NCBI RefSeq assembly: GCF_008326305.1
Contig: NZ_BIXY01000048.1
Location: 1 to 53,125 of the forward strand
Direction of reading: 5' to 3'
DNA from: Dictyobacter arantiisoli
GTDB lineage: Bacteria > Chloroflexota > Ktedonobacteria > Ktedonobacterales > Ktedonobacteraceae
Length of the DNA: 53,125 nt
This document shows, one piece after another, positions 16,131 through 31,634 of the stretch. Positions within the stretch are counted from its first letter, which is position 1. The number at the start of each line of letters is the position of its first letter. The position numbers were made by a program, and so were the translations under genes. The notes beneath the pieces are model-generated. The model did no database searches. It was given only the letters and a program-made list of their open reading frames with translations, and was not told the origin of the DNA.

Positions 16131-17327
16131 ATGCTCATGCAAGAGCTCATACATATGACAGTCGATCATTACTATATTGAACGAGGTCTCGCCAGGGGAG
16201 GAATGTCTGAGGTCTATCTGGCCCGTGACCAGCACAACGGCCAGATTGTGGCGATGAAAGTGGTACGCAGAAGCGCGGGTGAATATTATGAACGCTTCCG
16301 TCGTGAGGCACGGGCAATGGGCAATCTGCACCATCCTCATATTCTGCCATCGCTTGACTTCGGAGATTATGATCAATGGTCGTATCTGGTAATGCCTTAT
16401 ATCGAATATGGCACATTAACACGCCGCATCCAGGAAGGCCCGATGCCGATGGAGGAGGCGGGGCATGTTCTGGAACAGATAGCAGGTGCCCTGCAATTCG
16501 CCCATGAACACGGCATACTGCATCGGGATATCAAAGCCTCCAATGTCCTGCTACGCGATGGGCATTACGCCTATCTAACCGACTTTGGCCTGGTCAAAAG
16601 TATTGAGGATGAATATAGCCTGACGCGCTCAGGATTTTTAATTGGTACACCTGAGTATATGGCTCCAGAGTTGGTGGAAAACGCCGCTACACCCGCTAGC
16701 GATATCTATGCGCTGGGAATTTTGCTCTATCAGATGGTCACGGGAACTGTGCCGTTTAAAGGCACAAATCCGGTGAACATCGTGATGAAGCATCTGCGGG
16801 ATGCGCCGCCCCGACCAACTAACTTCAACAAAGATATTGTACCCGATGTGGAACGAGTCATCCTTCAGACGATTGAAAAAGATCCCATGCGGCGCTTTCA
16901 TACGGCACGTGCGCTCTCAAACGCTTTTTATCATGCGTACCGCGTCGACGCTCCGCCTGTGCCAATTCCCAACTTACTCAATCTTACGACCAGCCAGCAA
17001 CCATCGGTCCAGATCATGCCTGTCAGCCAGAGAAAATCGACCAGTCTGGGAATGTCACAGCTACGCAACATTCCGAAATCCCTCTGGATCATCGGAGTAA
17101 CGGTCCTGGTGCTCGTTCTCCTTATCTTTCTGATCAGCACGCTTACCCATAAAACTGGTCAGGAACTACCCATCAAGCCCCATGTGACCGCCACAGCGGT
17201 TACAAAGCAACCAGCAGTGACAGCTATGGTGATTACCAGGCAACCAGGCGCAACTGGACAACAAAAAACCATTCAGCAAACGAGTAAACACCAGATGAAG
17301 CATGCCCCGAAACCGCTTCATCAATAA
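16131..17327 (+). CDS. Membrane-anchored Ser/Thr protein kinase
   Basis: A 398-residue Hanks-type kinase, with GAGGAG six bases before the ATG. The catalytic domain covers about residues 15-275: Gly-rich loop GLARGGMSEV, Lys in VAMKVV (about 43), HRDIKASN catalytic loop (about 131), DFGLVKS (about 151), and GTPEYMAPE activation segment. One membrane segment follows at about 318-337. A short outer tail of about 60 residues is rich in Thr, Gln and Lys and has no recognisable sensor domain. It lies 62 bases before a PadR regulator and a membrane protein on the same strand, and the three may share a transcript. Targets are unknown. Confidence 0.9.
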   Translation: MLMQELIHMTVDHYYIERGLARGGMSEVYLARDQHNGQIVAMKVVRRSAGEYYERFRREARAMGNLHHPHILPSLDFGDYDQWSYLVMPYIEYGTLTRRIQEGPMPMEEAGHVLEQIAGALQFAHEHGILHRDIKASNVLLRDGHYAYLTDFGLVKSIEDEYSLTRSGFLIGTPEYMAPELVENAATPASDIYALGILLYQMVTGTVPFKGTNPVNIVMKHLRDAPPRPTNFNKDIVPDVERVILQTIEKDPMRRFHTARALSNAFYHAYRVDAPPVPIPNLLNLTTSQQPSVQIMPVSQRKSTSLGMSQLRNIPKSLWIIGVTVLVLVLLIFLISTLTHKTGQELPIKPHVTATAVTKQPAVTAMVITRQPGATGQQKTIQQTSKHQMKHAPKPLHQ

Positions 17328-20199: not shown

Positions 20200-21726
20200 A
20201 TGTATAACAAACCGAGCTTGCTATTGCTCCATATATTTATCTGCTGTCCACTACTCGTACTGACAAATATCTGTATCTCACCCTGGCAAGCTCACATTCA
20301 CGCGACTGGACTCTCCACTATTCCCAGTACCATCTTCCAGGATACAAACCTTCCCACCTTTACGCTTCAGGCTCCCGCCTCTGGTACGTTGAACTTTATC
20401 ATTACCAATTTAGATGATACGACTGTATTGACGGGAGTAACCCACAGTATCAATGGAACTATTCAATTGGTACTTCCTCTACAAAGCGATGGCTATTACA
20501 TACTGAATATTGCCAATCAACACATCCCCTTTGGTATCGTCCCGCCTGTCAGCGGCAACACTCAATCCCCTTTCGGTGTCGAAAGTCATCTCGAATATAA
20601 TGATAGCCATCTAGCACCCTTAATCCTTGCTGGTGGCATGCGTGCTGTGCGTGGAGATATTCGCTGGTCTATTGTCGAACCGAGCATGCAGGGGCACTAT
20701 ACTTTTAGTCTCTATGATCCCTGGATAGCTAGCATGCAACAAAATGGGATTACGCCTCTGATCACTCTAGACTATACGAATTCACTGTACGACAATGGTA
20801 TGACCCCCTACGATACGAGCGGCTATAAAGCGTTCGCCAATTACGCCAGAGCTGTACTACAACACTATGGATCGGCAATCAAAGCGCTGGAAGTCTATAA
20901 TGAATATAACGATCACTTTTCAAATGGGCCCTGTGCAAAAAATCCTGCCTGCTATGTGCAACTGCTGCAATATACCTATCAAGCGGTCAAGTCTGTACGC
21001 CCGGATGTCACGATTGTAGCTGGCGCGGCCTCTGAAAGCGCCCTGGACTGGTTTGAGCGCTTGTTTCAGAACGGCGCATTGCGCTATGCCGACGTGATCT
21101 CAGATCATCCTTATACGCAACAACAAACCAGTCCACCCGAGTCAGGCCCGCTCGATCAGCAGATGGCAAGCCTGGAGACGCTGATCAAGCGCTACAATCA
21201 TGGGCAGCCTAAACCGATCTGGCTCAGTGAATTGGGCTGGCCGACCTGCTGTAAACATGTTACTGAGCGCCAGCAGGCCGACTATCTGGTACGCAGCGTG
21301 CTCTTAGCACGTAGTGCAGGAGTGCGTAAATTTTTCTGGTATGATCTGGTCAATGATGGCAGTAGTACAACCGATACCGAGAGCAACTTTGGCCTGCTGA
21401 ACCTGCCTGACAGCAGTAACTACTATACGCCTAAGCCCGCCTATGTGGCCTATGCAGTACTGGCTCAACAATTAAATGGACATATCTTCACCACCAATCA
21501 TTCCAACCCGCCGGATATCTATGATGAACTATTCAACAATGACCTGCATGTCATGTGGACACCCCTCGCTGCGCGACAGGTAACCTTCGTGACACCCTGG
21601 CCCGTGACCGTCACTACCATGACCGGAAATACCAAAACCTACACGCCAACCAATGGCCGCATCTCCTTCATCCTCACCCAGGATCCCTGCTACGTGCACG
21701 GCTTTATCTCAGCGGTCCTGCCCTGA
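20200..21726 (+). CDS. Secreted clan GH-A-like glycoside hydrolase
   Basis: A 508-residue exported protein (hydrophobic N-terminus, residues about 5-30). Residues 40-120 form a small beta domain. The TIM barrel follows, at about 125-425. It starts with FGVESH and GMRAVRGDIRWSIVEP; ALEVYNEYND holds the likely acid/base Glu (about 235), and WLSELGWP holds the likely nucleophile Glu (about 344). That spacing fits clan GH-A families such as GH39 or GH5. A C-terminal beta domain closes the protein. The substrate (xylan, glucan or other) cannot be told. The start is eight bases after AAAGGA. It probably breaks down external polysaccharide. Confidence 0.8.
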   Translation: MYNKPSLLLLHIFICCPLLVLTNICISPWQAHIHATGLSTIPSTIFQDTNLPTFTLQAPASGTLNFIITNLDDTTVLTGVTHSINGTIQLVLPLQSDGYYILNIANQHIPFGIVPPVSGNTQSPFGVESHLEYNDSHLAPLILAGGMRAVRGDIRWSIVEPSMQGHYTFSLYDPWIASMQQNGITPLITLDYTNSLYDNGMTPYDTSGYKAFANYARAVLQHYGSAIKALEVYNEYNDHFSNGPCAKNPACYVQLLQYTYQAVKSVRPDVTIVAGAASESALDWFERLFQNGALRYADVISDHPYTQQQTSPPESGPLDQQMASLETLIKRYNHGQPKPIWLSELGWPTCCKHVTERQQADYLVRSVLLARSAGVRKFFWYDLVNDGSSTTDTESNFGLLNLPDSSNYYTPKPAYVAYAVLAQQLNGHIFTTNHSNPPDIYDELFNNDLHVMWTPLAARQVTFVTPWPVTVTTMTGNTKTYTPTNGRISFILTQDPCYVHGFISAVLP

Positions 21727-26223: not shown

Positions 26224-26718
26224 AATAGGTTAACGACCCATACCCGATAGAGAGGATAGATCACTCGTATATATAGATACTTTTATAAATTATTGCTCTT
26301 CTCTTATTTACAAAAAACTCAATAGCATCTTACGGAGAGCAAAGTAGCTAAGCCCATATACATGGATGTGATTTTCCTGTGAGATTATTAGCAGAATTAT
26401 TATTTAATCACAGGTATAATAGGGGCATACTATTTACACTGGCTACATTCAAATGTGAAGTGAAAAGTAAACCATTTGAACCAGACCAGCAACATCACTC
26501 CCAGGCGTATGGAACATGCCACACGTACCATTGATTTGAAGGTGGGCAGTGTTACCTTCAAATATTGAAATAATATAGTGGGCATACATTGTTATAACAG
26601 GTGTCTAATAATTATTCTGATAGATGCAGGTTTTCCATAGCATGCCCGGTTGGATGAAACAAAATATTCACACAAAGTGCCTGACCAGGGCATTGGCTGC
26701 ACAGAGGAGTATGTTACA
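26224..26718. promoter_or_regulatory. AT-rich upstream region of the glycosyltransferase gene with perfect inverted repeat
   Basis: About 500 AT-rich bases without a gene. A perfect 10-bp inverted repeat, ATTTGAAGGT (26535-26544) and ACCTTCAAAT (26555-26564) with a 10-base spacer, lies about 155 bases before the chosen start. It may be a regulator site or an mRNA hairpin. GAGGAG at 26704-26709 marks the likely ribosome site. Confidence 0.4.
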
Positions 26719-28632
26719 TTGACACATTTTGCTACATGGGGAAATCCTTGTGAAAGCCTGCCTGTCAGTGTTACTTTAGAAAATACGGCAGAAAATACGG
26801 ATATGATACAAGAAAAAACCCAACAAAATAATCTCATTACACAATTGGCGCTTCCACGCCCCACTTATGTAAGTGTGCAAATACAGGATGGCAATTTACA
26901 GATAGCAGAGTCAGTGGACAATACCGTGGTTACTTATCATAAAGCATTGCACGATACTGCTCCCGATGAGGCGGTTATCACCTGGCTAAAACAGGCGACG
27001 AACGAACATAATTTACAGTTTATCGCCGCTTCCTTGCGCGAGGGAGATTTTACGCCAGAGTTGCCTTCCAAACTCTGGTTATTGGGAGATATTGTCCCCT
27101 ACTGGACCCCGAAAAATACAGGCGACTATGTTTCCCCAGAGGAACGGGTCAAAACGATCCAGAGACGCTTTGATCAAGATAATCTGGTCAATGTGCCCCT
27201 CACGCCTGAGCGCGAGGTGGTCGTCAGCGAGTTGGTATCGCTGGAAGATTATCGCGCGACGGTCATGCCTGATCAATTTGAGTTACTGGAGCAGTTTGCC
27301 CAGAAGTTCTCTGGCAAGCGGCTGGTCTTTATCAACGCAACCCCCCAGGGCGGTGGTGTCGCTCTAATGCGTCATGCATTGATCCGCCTGCTACGGCTGC
27401 TAGGCGTGGACGCCCACTGGCACATTCTGCTCCCATGCAAAGAGGTCTTCGATGTCACCAAATCCAAGATCCATAATGTCCTGCAAAATGTGGCCGCCCC
27501 TTCTGTTGAATTAAATGAGGAAGATAAACAACTCTATCGAGAGTGGACGCAGGAGAATGCAAACGTGCTGGCGCCAGTATTCCAGCAAGCGGATGTAATC
27601 GTGGTCGATGATCCACAGCCCGCAGGCTTGATTCCGCATATTCGACAGATCAATCCAGCAGCCAGCGTGCTTTATCGTTCACATATTCAAATTGAGGCGG
27701 AACTGGCGACGTGTGAGGGCACACCACAGGCCACTACCTGGAACTTCCTGTGGGATTTCATCCAGCAGGCGGACCTCTTTATCAGTCATCCGATGAAGAT
27801 GTTTGTTCCAAATAACATACCAACCAATAAGATACTCTATATGCCCGCCACGACTGATGCGCTGGACGGCTTGAATAAGCCGCTGACGGAGCAGCAAATG
27901 GAGACATATCTGAAGTTGCTTGATCAACTCCTGATCGAGGATGGACAGAAGCCGCTGGACGCTAGGCGACCATATATCGCGCAAATCGCGCGCTTTGATC
28001 CTTCCAAGGGTATTCCAGATGTGCTCGATGCCTATCGTCAGTTGCGCGAGATACTGGCGGAGAAGCAACAGCCAATGCCACAACTGGTGATAGCTGGCAA
28101 TAGTTCTATCGATGATCCCGATGGCGTGCCAATCTTTAGTCTGATCAAACGTATGCTGCAAACCAAGCCATACGCTGCCTTCGCGGATGATATTAAGGTT
28201 GTCCGCCTGCCACATCGAGATCAAATTCTGGATACCCTGTTACGCAAGAGTCGGGTAGTGCTCCAGCTTTCCATTAAAGAGGGCTTTGAGATTAAAGTGA
28301 CCGAGGCACTACTGAAGGGTAAGCCCGTGGTCGCGTATCGTACCGGGGGTATTCCACTACAGATCCAGGATAATGCGAACGGTTTCCTGGTCCCGGTTGG
28401 GGAGACAACCCAGGTTGCCAAACATCTCTATGATCTGATGACCGACGAGATTCTGTATGAGAGCATGAGTAACGCCGCCACAGGATTAGTCAATCGGGAT
28501 TACCTGACTATTGGTAACGCCACCAACTGGCTCTATCTGGCCGTCACACTTGCCAATGGTAAGGAGATTGAAGGGAACTACCAGTGGGTCAGTGCTCTGG
28601 CACAACCAAACGAGGAAGAAGCAGTGGCTTGA
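26719..28632 (+). CDS. GT4-family glycosyltransferase, trehalose synthase (TreT)-like
   Basis: A 637-residue cytoplasmic enzyme. The C-terminal two thirds resemble TreT/trehalose phosphorylase-type GT4 proteins, which join NDP-glucose and glucose. The first Rossmann half is recognised by NATPQGGGVALMRHALIRLLRLLGVDAHW; then come VVDDPQPAGL, YRSHIQIE and FISHPMKMFVP. The donor half has IAQIARFDPSKGIPDVL, and the E-x7-E motif lies in SIKEGFEIKVTEALLKGKPVVAYRTGGIPLQI. About 150 N-terminal residues before this are not recognised. Start choice is uncertain: TTG 26719 lies nine bases after GAGGAG; TTG 26650 and ATG 26803 are in frame but lack good sites. Trehalose production would fit a desiccation-tolerant soil bacterium. 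Confidence 0.75.
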   Translation: MTHFATWGNPCESLPVSVTLENTAENTDMIQEKTQQNNLITQLALPRPTYVSVQIQDGNLQIAESVDNTVVTYHKALHDTAPDEAVITWLKQATNEHNLQFIAASLREGDFTPELPSKLWLLGDIVPYWTPKNTGDYVSPEERVKTIQRRFDQDNLVNVPLTPEREVVVSELVSLEDYRATVMPDQFELLEQFAQKFSGKRLVFINATPQGGGVALMRHALIRLLRLLGVDAHWHILLPCKEVFDVTKSKIHNVLQNVAAPSVELNEEDKQLYREWTQENANVLAPVFQQADVIVVDDPQPAGLIPHIRQINPAASVLYRSHIQIEAELATCEGTPQATTWNFLWDFIQQADLFISHPMKMFVPNNIPTNKILYMPATTDALDGLNKPLTEQQMETYLKLLDQLLIEDGQKPLDARRPYIAQIARFDPSKGIPDVLDAYRQLREILAEKQQPMPQLVIAGNSSIDDPDGVPIFSLIKRMLQTKPYAAFADDIKVVRLPHRDQILDTLLRKSRVVLQLSIKEGFEIKVTEALLKGKPVVAYRTGGIPLQIQDNANGFLVPVGETTQVAKHLYDLMTDEILYESMSNAATGLVNRDYLTIGNATNWLYLAVTLANGKEIEGNYQWVSALAQPNEEEAVA

Positions 28633-28773: not shown

Positions 28774-29520
28774 TCAGTTTAGCGGAGCCCAGGCTTGCCA
28801 GCTTCCAGCTTGATAGTAGGTTTGTTGAAGAAGATTATTGATGGTACGCGAGAAGACATCAATACGACCAGGTTCCCAGACGGTGGCAGCAGGGCTTGAG
28901 GTCATGACACCTCCCAGGGTCTCCCAGGCGTGCCAGGTTCCATCATAATTGATACGCTGAAGGACGTTGCCGACGCCGCGCACAAAGACATCCAGATGAT
29001 TGAGGCCGACAGAGACAGCTGCTGGATCGGATTCAAAGGAACCGCCGAGCGATTCCCAGTTGTGCCACGAACCATCATAACCTCGATGCCATAAGGCGCT
29101 ATCGGTACCACGCACAAAGACATCCAGCCGGTTCACGCCCCAGCTCGCCGCGGATGGGCTTGACAGCAACACACCATCCAGACGATCCCAATCGTGCCAT
29201 GAGCCATCAAAGGCTTTATGCCATAAGGCATTATCAGTACTGCGCGCAAAGACATCCAAACGGCCAGGCCCCCAGGCCACAACTGAGGGATCAGTAGTCA
29301 ATGTGCCCCCCAGCGATTCCCAGGCATGCCACGAACCATCATACCAGGCATGCTGAAGCGTATTATCCGCTCCACGCGCAAAAGCATCCAGGCGGCCCGC
29401 GCCCCAGCTTGTCACGACCGGATCGAATGCTAATCCATTGAGCGCTAACGTCCAGGCATGCCAGGTTCCATCATAGTGACGCTGCCAGAGTCCACCATCC
29501 GTGCCCCGCACAAAGATATC
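28774..29520 (-). repeat. Six in-frame 132-bp repeats coding the propeller blades
   Basis: Near-identical 44-codon units run from about 29517 down to the stop of the kinase gene. The recurring plus-strand motif is CCAnGCATGCCA(G/C)G or a close variant, encoding SWHAWE. High similarity between neighbouring units suggests recent internal duplication or gene conversion. Confidence 0.75.
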
Positions 29521-31299
29521 CAATTGACCAGCAAGCCCGGAGACAACAGAGGGGCGGGTCGCATTCAGTACCGTAGGATTCTGCGACACCGGGGTAGGAG
29601 TTGACGGGACGACTGTCGCGGTCGGTGGCGCGCTTTTGTGATGCGGCCGGACAGGGATAGGTGTAGGAACAGCTGGCACGGGCTGAAATTTCCCTTCAAT
29701 AGCCGCAATAGCGCTTCCTCCCACCACGCCAGCTACCAGCACGCTCGCTAATCCTCCAATTACAATACGTCGACGCGCAAGCAAAGTATTGGGCGCTTGT
29801 ATAGGCGGCGGGGCAGCTCGTACAGATTGTGTTGCGAGCAACAGGTTACGCGACGGAGGCAATGGGCGCATTGCCAGGCGCTGACTGCTGGATGGCAACA
29901 GCGGAGGCAGAAGTTCCTGCTGGTTGGGCGAGAGCAAAGGAATCGAAAAGACCTTTTTTACCGCTGGTACAGCCTTGTTCATCCAGAGATGTTTCACAGC
30001 GGGAACGCCATGCTCTGTCCACTTCTGCTTCAAATCGGTCAAGACAACCGTAGCCTTTGCAGTCAGAGCCGGTGTCCCTGCCGTCTGATCATCCTTAACG
30101 ACGGCATCCGAGAGAGGCTGAAGTCCAGGCGAAGAGGCGTAATCCAGGAAACGCCGGGTGCCGCTATTGGATTGTGCGGCGGGCAATTTCAAGGAGTTTG
30201 GAGGCAGCGACACTTCCAGATGTCTGCTCACAGTATCTGAGGGCTGCGATGTCAGCAGCTTACTGCTATTGGCCTGTGGGGTGAGGCCGGGCTTACCAAA
30301 ACGCAATAATTGTGGTTGCTTCCCTGAGAGGGAGAGATCTTGTACCGACATGCTCTGTACAGGAGATACAACAACCTCTGTCTTATCGGATGTGGATGCG
30401 GGAGGCAAGGAACTCAGAGCCAGAGCCGACAGGTGAGGCGGGACCGGCGTGCTATCGATGTGCACGCGATCACGCTGCGCGGCATGCTCAAAGGCCACAG
30501 CAAAATCCTGCATTGAAGAGTAGCGATCTTGCGGATTCTTGCTCAGGGCACGCATGATGACTGCTTCCAGTTCCAGCGGCACCTCCAGCACTTTATCACA
30601 CAATGAAGGTGGCGAGATATGGACATGCTGAAGAGCGATTTCCATGTCTGAGCCAACAAAAGGCGGCGTGCCGGACAGCCATTCATAGGCTGCAATTGCC
30701 AGTGAATATTGATCGCAAGCAAAACTCGCCTCGCTGGTAAATAATTCAGGGGCCATATAGGTCGTAGTGCCCACAGTTTCTGAAAGATGGGCCGTCGCTA
30801 CGCCTGGATTGCTGGGCATTCCCTGTAAGGTCACAGCGATACCAAAATCGCTCAATACCAACGCCTTCTGCTCATCCACCAACATATTCTCAGGCTTGAC
30901 ATCGCGATGGATAATCATCTGCTCATGGGCATAGTGGAGGGCCTGGGCCATCTGCTTGACATAGAGTGTAACCAGATCCAGAGGAACACTGCTGCCGATA
31001 GGATGCAAGCGGCGCAGGGAGCCATAGGGCGCATAGCTCATCACCAGAAAAGGGATCTCCTGCTCGATACCAAAATCATGGACCATCACAATATGGGGAT
31101 GGCGCAAACGAGCAATTGTACGCGCTTCCGCGAGAAAGGGAGCGAAAGATTCCGCGCTCAACTGCATGCGTAACACTTTGATCGCAGCCGATGTCTTTAA
31201 ATAAATATGTTCTCCCAGGTAAACATCGGCAAATCCGCCCTGTCCCAGCAGCTTGAGGAGCTGGTAGTTGCCTAATTGCTTCCCTTCATCATAGGTCAT
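28774..31299 (-). CDS. Ser/Thr protein kinase with external six-blade lectin-like propeller
   Basis: An 841-residue membrane receptor-type kinase. The kinase domain spans about 8-270: LGQGGFADVYLG, AAIKVL, HRDVKPEN, SDFGIAV and TTYMAPE, so it looks active. A long Ser/Pro-rich linker leads to one membrane segment at about 512-534. Outside, a Pro/Thr spacer is followed from about 594 to the end by six repeats of 44 residues, the last one shorter. Each has the pattern D(V/I)F(V/A)RG.DN.LWH...YDGSWH.WESLGG. This is the PLL/DUF346 beta-propeller type, whose known members bind fucose or other sugars. It may sense external glycans. The start at 31299 is about 12 bases after AAGGG; the longer frame to 31356 has no site. 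Confidence 0.9.
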   Translation of the reverse strand: MTYDEGKQLGNYQLLKLLGQGGFADVYLGEHIYLKTSAAIKVLRMQLSAESFAPFLAEARTIARLRHPHIVMVHDFGIEQEIPFLVMSYAPYGSLRRLHPIGSSVPLDLVTLYVKQMAQALHYAHEQMIIHRDVKPENMLVDEQKALVLSDFGIAVTLQGMPSNPGVATAHLSETVGTTTYMAPELFTSEASFACDQYSLAIAAYEWLSGTPPFVGSDMEIALQHVHISPPSLCDKVLEVPLELEAVIMRALSKNPQDRYSSMQDFAVAFEHAAQRDRVHIDSTPVPPHLSALALSSLPPASTSDKTEVVVSPVQSMSVQDLSLSGKQPQLLRFGKPGLTPQANSSKLLTSQPSDTVSRHLEVSLPPNSLKLPAAQSNSGTRRFLDYASSPGLQPLSDAVVKDDQTAGTPALTAKATVVLTDLKQKWTEHGVPAVKHLWMNKAVPAVKKVFSIPLLSPNQQELLPPLLPSSSQRLAMRPLPPSRNLLLATQSVRAAPPPIQAPNTLLARRRIVIGGLASVLVAGVVGGSAIAAIEGKFQPVPAVPTPIPVRPHHKSAPPTATVVPSTPTPVSQNPTVLNATRPSVVSGLAGQLDIFVRGTDGGLWQRHYDGTWHAWTLALNGLAFDPVVTSWGAGRLDAFARGADNTLQHAWYDGSWHAWESLGGTLTTDPSVVAWGPGRLDVFARSTDNALWHKAFDGSWHDWDRLDGVLLSSPSAASWGVNRLDVFVRGTDSALWHRGYDGSWHNWESLGGSFESDPAAVSVGLNHLDVFVRGVGNVLQRINYDGTWHAWETLGGVMTSSPAATVWEPGRIDVFSRTINNLLQQTYYQAGSWQAWAPLN

Positions 31300-31553
31300 C
31301 GAAATGCATGTCCCTTCTGACCCGGCAAGGTGTTGAAATACAGACAGAAACGCCATCGAAAATACGGAGGCAATTTTCTATATTGCACGAGCAAAGCTAT
31401 TTTACCATGCCAGAAAGGTTTTCTCTTCTATGCTATAAGAAAAGTGGGTAAAAAGTACCCCATTTTCTTCCTAAAAGACAGAGGCCCAGGCAAACACTTT
31501 GAATGTGTCGGACTCCCAGTACCATCGGGATCTTACTGTTTGACCTGCTGGCA

Positions 31554-31573: not shown

Positions 31574-31634
31574 CTTTTTAGTGTGTGGTGTCGGAAAAGT
31601 TCTTCGAACTTTTCCGACACCACACACTAAAAAG
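31574..31634. repeat. Perfect 29-bp-arm palindrome (61 bp)
   Basis: Arms 31574-31602 and 31606-31634 are exact reverse complements around a three-base centre (TTC). Both ends are A/T-rich (CTTTTTAGTG... and ...CACTAAAAAG), so it has a T-run on either strand. It lies downstream of the leftward hydrolase gene and upstream of the leftward kinase gene. It could be a bidirectional terminator, a cruciform-forming element or a protein-binding palindrome. Confidence 0.85.

Follow-up and report, generated by a model that had tools for sequence, protein, structure and literature searches.

A receptor-type kinase of Dictyobacter arantiisoli with a lectin-like propeller and a putative internal twin-arginine signal anchor

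Sequence and structure prediction support a receptor-kinase architecture with a lectin-like propeller for the product of 28774..31299 (reverse strand) in the window, the whole 53,125-nt stretch of DNA that we analysed from the soil bacterium Dictyobacter arantiisoli. The residues in and before its membrane helix suggest that this helix is a signal anchor of the twin-arginine (Tat) type, placed inside the protein. We favour, with moderate confidence, a single-pass receptor kinase whose PLL propeller is exported by Tat in folded form, anchored by an uncleaved helix, furnished with glycan-binding pockets and activated by clustering. We consider it rather probable that Ktedonobacteraceae possess a large class of such receptor kinases, with PLL-like or WD40 propellers delivered by Tat through a mid-protein anchor behind a soluble kinase.

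Architecture of the kinase and its propeller

The gene encodes 841 residues when read from position 31299, at whose Met the homologue alignments begin; an alternative start of the open reading frame at 31356 is possible. All of its features lie on the reverse strand. A Hanks-type kinase domain (residues ~12-264; 30508..31266; Pkinase PF00069, E 3.5e-43) contains every catalytic motif, namely the Gly-loop from residue 19, AAIK from 38, the Glu, HRD from 131, SDFG from 150 and MAPE from 182. A low-complexity linker, predicted to be cytoplasmic (residues 265-507; 29779..30507), separates it from a twin-arginine motif, A-R-R-R (residues 508-511; 29767..29778), and in PLL orthologues this linker can be as short as about 50 or as long as 290 residues. 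The motif directly precedes the kinase's one hydrophobic segment, a Gly/Ala-rich, weakly hydrophobic membrane helix (residues 512-534; 29698..29766), which we predict to be the internal Tat signal anchor. A Pro/Thr-rich stalk, predicted to lie outside the membrane (residues 535-578; 29566..29697), then leads to a six-bladed PLL/DUF346 propeller (residues 579-841; 28777..29565), which matches DUF346 (PF03984, E 1.5e-9 for the kinase product) and, by phmmer, the lectin PLL2 (6rfz, E 7e-79). The open reading frame, Pfam and the repeat count thereby confirm the coordinates and architecture of the initial annotation (a kinase, one membrane helix and six 44-residue PLL/DUF346 blades). Identity as a PASTA kinase (PknB/Stk1) was rejected: the NCBIfam equivalog scored 225.9 bits, on the kinase part alone, against the more than 450 required, and there were no PASTA matches.

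The propeller comprises exactly six 44-residue repeats across residues 583-841, far beyond chance, with blades starting at residues 583, 627, 671, 715, 759 and 803. An AlphaFold2 model built from a 4-row alignment is a closed six-bladed ring (pLDDT 88.5, pTM 0.86), in which the blade number is itself a prediction, as an input of six repeats tends toward ring closure. Over its whole length the model superposes on the six-bladed fungal fucose lectins AAL and AFL (Z 29-31, rmsd 2.2 Å, 267 residues), while the nearest relatives in sequence are the seven-bladed Photorhabdus PLL lectins (~40% identity), which lie at an rmsd of ~3 Å from the model. Because its fold fits the six-bladed lectins and its sequence is nearest to the PLL lectins, we regard the predicted propeller as of PLL type, but with six blades. 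The Pfam match of the kinase product to the fucose lectin family PF07938 fell below the cut-off (22.5 versus 25.3 bits).

Blades within the protein share 37-59% identity, and blades at the same position in congeners share 59-89%. The repeats are therefore older than the genus, and the recent expansion of near-identical blades that had been suggested at first is ruled out.

The membrane helix across related kinases

We compared 81 kinases with a transmembrane segment (16 PLL, 20 WD40 and 45 other single-TM kinases) from the same genome and from Ktedonobacteraceae relatives; they were located by motif in fetched stretches, a procedure that missed some of 77 kinase matches. An RRx-hydrophobic motif directly before the helix occurs in 15 of 16 PLL and 20 of 20 WD40 kinases (35/36 in total) versus 4 of the 45 others, with a Fisher P-value (2.7e-17) that overstates independence because the kinases share ancestry. 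The helix averages an octanol energy of -1.2 kcal/mol in PLL kinases, -1.6 kcal/mol in WD40 kinases and -10.6 kcal/mol in the others. With a stricter TatP-style pattern plus an uncharged stretch, 30/36 propeller kinases were recovered versus 3/44 others, and the same combination occurred twice elsewhere in these proteins (54,864 residues); the classes were set by simple patterns, and the judgement of individual rows as Tat-like relied partly on the motif itself. Kinases of a sister family with other ectodomains lacked the motif and had hydrophobic helices.

The arginine pair is kept in 35 propeller kinases even though it lies anywhere from 24 to 286 residues beyond the end of the kinase domain, across linkers that cannot be aligned, and it is preceded by Ser or Thr in 28 of these 35. 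The window's version (ARRRIVIGG) is weaker than the SRR common in orthologues (ISRRAVVGG, MSRRMLLG, VSRRVVIG, LSRRQALLRIG and similar). In the canonical S-R-R-x-F-L-K motif, the positions besides the arginines are merely semi-conserved (PMC7317946). Secreted DUF346 proteins of congeners start with the same SRRVVLAGIAG-type signal at their N terminus, for example ISRRVVLAGIAG in L056, and tatA and tatC are adjacent on contig C19 of the D. arantiisoli genome. Searches of Pfam and NCBIfam returned no Tat-signal match; they also missed an N-terminal Tat positive control, so this null result is uninformative. The 40 residues after the helix hold a mean of 3.2 Arg/Lys in PLL kinases and 2.1 in other kinases, a raw difference in means.

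Published work on Rieske-type proteins identifies low hydrophobicity of the helix as what determines the handover from Sec to Tat: Sec fails to retain such a helix, and the internal Tat signal, for which twin arginines are required, is then recognised (PMC5449189). By analogy, the arginine pair and weakly hydrophobic helix of the window kinase suggest Tat export of a folded propeller. One point against this reading is that no cofactor evident in the sequence would explain the need for Tat.

The same residues could belong to an ordinary single-pass kinase that is inserted by Sec/SRP and carries a lectin propeller, with arginines that obey the positive-inside rule. Such a protein would be in keeping with the presence of RR somewhere near the helix in 16/45 other single-TM kinases and of KK, KR or RK in 20/45. 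However, the positive-inside rule accepts Lys, whereas the pair in propeller kinases is always RR, in a fixed register and before a helix with an octanol energy near zero. Furthermore, the kinases of one clade (L042-L047) have a third Arg within the start of the helix (SRRQALLRIGALAL), a placement that is usual for Tat signals and poor for Sec insertion. The one PLL kinase without RR, L052, has a strongly hydrophobic, Sec-like helix (-14.5 kcal/mol). It shows that this architecture is compatible with a Sec-like helix, a point in favour of Sec insertion. Both features differ together in L052, which is possibly a natural switch from Tat-like to Sec-like. Weighing these observations, we consider Sec/SRP insertion of the window kinase unlikely. 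L052 (G009:C436) also has another type of blade (YWDGSWHGW).

Shared ancestry limits how the association between propeller and arginine pair may be counted. The propeller label changes 8 times on the kinase tree, which provides 8 independent contrasts on the best tree and 2 on firmly supported branches; the phylogenetic contrast test falls short of significance because firmly supported pairs are too few, and no supported contrast ran opposite to the association. The pair may be ancestral in the kinase subfamily and lost together with the propeller, and it is not to be counted as many independent gains. WD40 kinases of the same subfamily with the SRR-helix signature include L163, L164, L166, L168, L169 and L171-L175, among others. 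Two kinases, L115 (G000:C23) and L203 (G009:C789), have no recognised propeller, yet carry SRR before the helix, and the ectodomain of L203 has no Pfam match. A membrane helix is absent from five WD40 kinases.

Two further kinase loci were seen. At 16131-17327 the window encodes a second Ser/Thr kinase with a short tail, whose helix is of the ordinary kind, strongly hydrophobic and lacking RR, and which serves as an internal contrast to the propeller kinase. Elsewhere in the genome (L133, G000:C57:6759-13035), three tandem kinases hardly differ in their kinase domains and helices (end branches <=0.03), but their ectodomains differ in length.

A Tat-like signal inside the gene could instead give rise to a separate secreted lectin, either from an internal start codon or by signal-peptidase cleavage. 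The window has a Met ~30 residues before the arginine pair and an A-x-A at the end of the helix. Neither is conserved: in 15 of the 35 motif-bearing relatives the 45 residues upstream of RR contain no Met, by which we rejected the internal start, and A-x-A is present in 12/35. A secreted product is thus very improbable, and the anchored full-length receptor is favoured because neither the signal-peptidase site nor the internal start is conserved.

Sugar pockets, neighbouring genes and distribution

In the lectin PHL, the fucose site consists of Thr194, Trp199 and Trp214 of one blade together with the backbone of the preceding blade, and the galactose site consists of Arg91, Glu93 and Trp107 together with part of a longer loop (PMC5584973). 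The window propeller has largely lost the polar, galactose-type pocket. The fucose-type Thr/Trp/Trp set is intact in blade 1 (T600, W605, W616), blade 3 (T688, W693, W704) and blade 4 (T732, W737, W748), and blades 2, 5 and 6 have Ala, Val or Ile instead of the pocket Thr and Gln instead of the stacking Trp (the Trp199 position). By the yardstick of the initial annotation, under which loss of the pocket residues in most blades would speak against sugar binding, the fucose-type set ends in a tie (3/6 kept).

Most of the orthologues, which come from seven genera, carry Trp at the Trp199 position of blades 1, 3 and 4, and a different residue (Gln, Leu, Met or other) at that position of blades 2, 5 and 6. 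L003, L039, L050 and L052 deviate from this pattern in single blades, with L003, L050 and L052 lacking individual blade Trps. Many orthologues have Val, Ala, Ser or Gly in place of the pocket Thr. Fucose-type binding at up to three candidate sites is, from these residues, plausible.

The propeller may also have lost its lectin role and serve as a module for protein binding, cell-wall binding or dimerisation, which would be compatible with insertion by either Tat or Sec. WD40 propellers, which related kinases carry at the equivalent position, usually bind proteins, and the missing stacking Trp in 3/6 fucose-type sites, the mostly missing polar sites and the unconserved pocket Thr all point in this direction. 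Retention of the Trp/Trp pairs of blades 1, 3 and 4 in most orthologues, despite wide divergence of the blades, argues against it. We regard loss of the lectin role as a real but lesser possibility, and glycan binding stays part of the mechanism that we favour.

The surrounding genes give no functional link, because synteny stops at the genus. The convergent neighbour, a TreT-like GT4 glycosyltransferase that is not part of the receptor (26650..28632, forward strand; PF21269, 4e-39), lies beside the kinase in 4/4 congeners and not elsewhere among the genomes compared. Together with abhydrolase, vWA, DUF58 and MoxR genes, it belongs to a neighbourhood kept in two to four of the 4 congeners and nowhere else compared. 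An operon with the TreT-like gene is ruled out, as the genes stand tail to tail, and a link to trehalose was rejected on the same limit of synteny. Among the neighbours named at first, the TreT-like gene and the MoxR-type AAA and DUF58/vWA genes (at 32.9-35.9 kb of the window) were confirmed, while the glycosidase amounts to a weak glycoside-hydrolase match at 20200-21726; we found no support for a functional connection with trehalose synthesis or the glycosidase, nor for host sensing. Upstream of the kinase and before the abhydrolase gene lies a perfect inverted repeat (31578-31630; 25-base arms, 3-base loop), which by its sequence may be a terminator or a repeat element.

DUF346 occurs in 22 of 29 Ktedonobacteraceae genomes, 20 of which, from seven genera, have kinase fusions. 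No kinase-PLL fusion was found outside the family among the DUF346 proteins inspected in 400 Chloroflexota genomes, with few candidates scored per genome. Two other DUF346 loci stood out. A short second DUF346 reading frame in the D. arantiisoli genome (L002, G000:C101:9004-12105; locus positions 1183-1614) has a Tat-like start, SVSRRTMLAG; it looks truncated, and masked stretches and repeated peptides of CRISPR-like appearance are found close to it. In another Chloroflexota family, a TIR domain (PF13676, 4.5e-24) is fused to DUF346 blades (L240, G376:C4), possibly, judging by its domains, a lectin-linked TIR protein.

Proposed mechanism and comparison with known systems

The domains, kinase motifs, predicted closed ring, pocket residues and signature of RR with low hydrophobicity come from the sequence and from structure prediction, and on them we build a mechanism in which we infer the use of Tat, the topology, the sugar binding, the identity of the ligand and the mode of activation. 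The N-terminal kinase would remain in the cytoplasm, where the C-terminal six-bladed PLL-type propeller would fold before crossing the membrane through the Tat translocase. The translocase would recognise the internal twin-arginine signal before the sole helix, and this helix would stay in the membrane, uncleaved, as an anchor. On the outer side, a glycan may be bound by as many as three pockets, located around blades 1, 3 and 4; the most plausible ligands are of the fucose or O-methyl-sugar type, as in PLL lectins. A multivalent ligand would cluster the receptors, and trans-phosphorylation would then activate the kinase.

Fusions of kinases with propellers (WD40 kinases, PknD), PLL lectins and internal Tat signals in a few polytopic families are already known. 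Our literature search, with most subscription journals beyond its reach, found no papers on Tat-inserted kinases or DUF346 kinases; neither the PLL kinase nor, more notably, a class of receptor kinases with an internal Tat signal anchor turned up in it. If correct, the mechanism would make these receptor kinases a novel type of Tat substrate, assembled by a route that is likewise new and in which control over ectodomain folding is coupled to installation of the receptor, and it would account for the display of pre-folded propellers by these kinases. It would widen the Tat pathway from redox enzymes and exports signalled at the N terminus to signalling receptors, with a Tat signal that lies several hundred residues into the protein and that tools oriented toward the N terminus may overlook. 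A simple sequence rule (RR plus a weakly hydrophobic helix) could locate further such proteins. With its lectin-like propeller, this kinase would also be one of the few bacterial receptor kinases that are candidates for sensing glycans directly.

The propeller has two relatives among lectins. The Photorhabdus PLL/PHL lectins (PDB 6rfz, 5mxe, 6t96) share blades of ~40% identity, DUF346 W-motif repeats and the Thr/Trp/Trp set found in three window blades, but they are free seven-bladed proteins without a kinase, whereas the window propeller has six blades, belongs to a membrane kinase and has mostly lost its polar sites. The six-bladed fucose lectins AAL and AFL superpose on the predicted window ring over the full domain, but are 17-19% identical to it and build their fucose pocket in another way (PMC5584973).

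Among kinases, Mycobacterium tuberculosis PknD likewise joins a kinase through one membrane helix to an extracellular six-bladed propeller, which is of the NHL type; the window kinase has no NHL match. We know of no report that PknD depends on Tat. PkwA and other bacterial WD40 kinases also unite kinase and propeller in one protein, with WD40 rather than PLL blades, and we found no mention of signal peptides in the survey that cites PkwA (PMC5587647).

The Sec-Tat dual-targeted proteins (actinobacterial Rieske, Sco3746, polyferredoxin and long YkuE) resemble the window kinase in having an internal RR immediately before a weakly hydrophobic final helix and a folded domain outside; unlike it, they are polytopic, with earlier helices inserted by Sec and with cofactor or metal domains (PMC5449189). 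In the window kinase the arginine pair instead lies behind a soluble kinase and before the single helix, with no Sec-inserted helices ahead of it.
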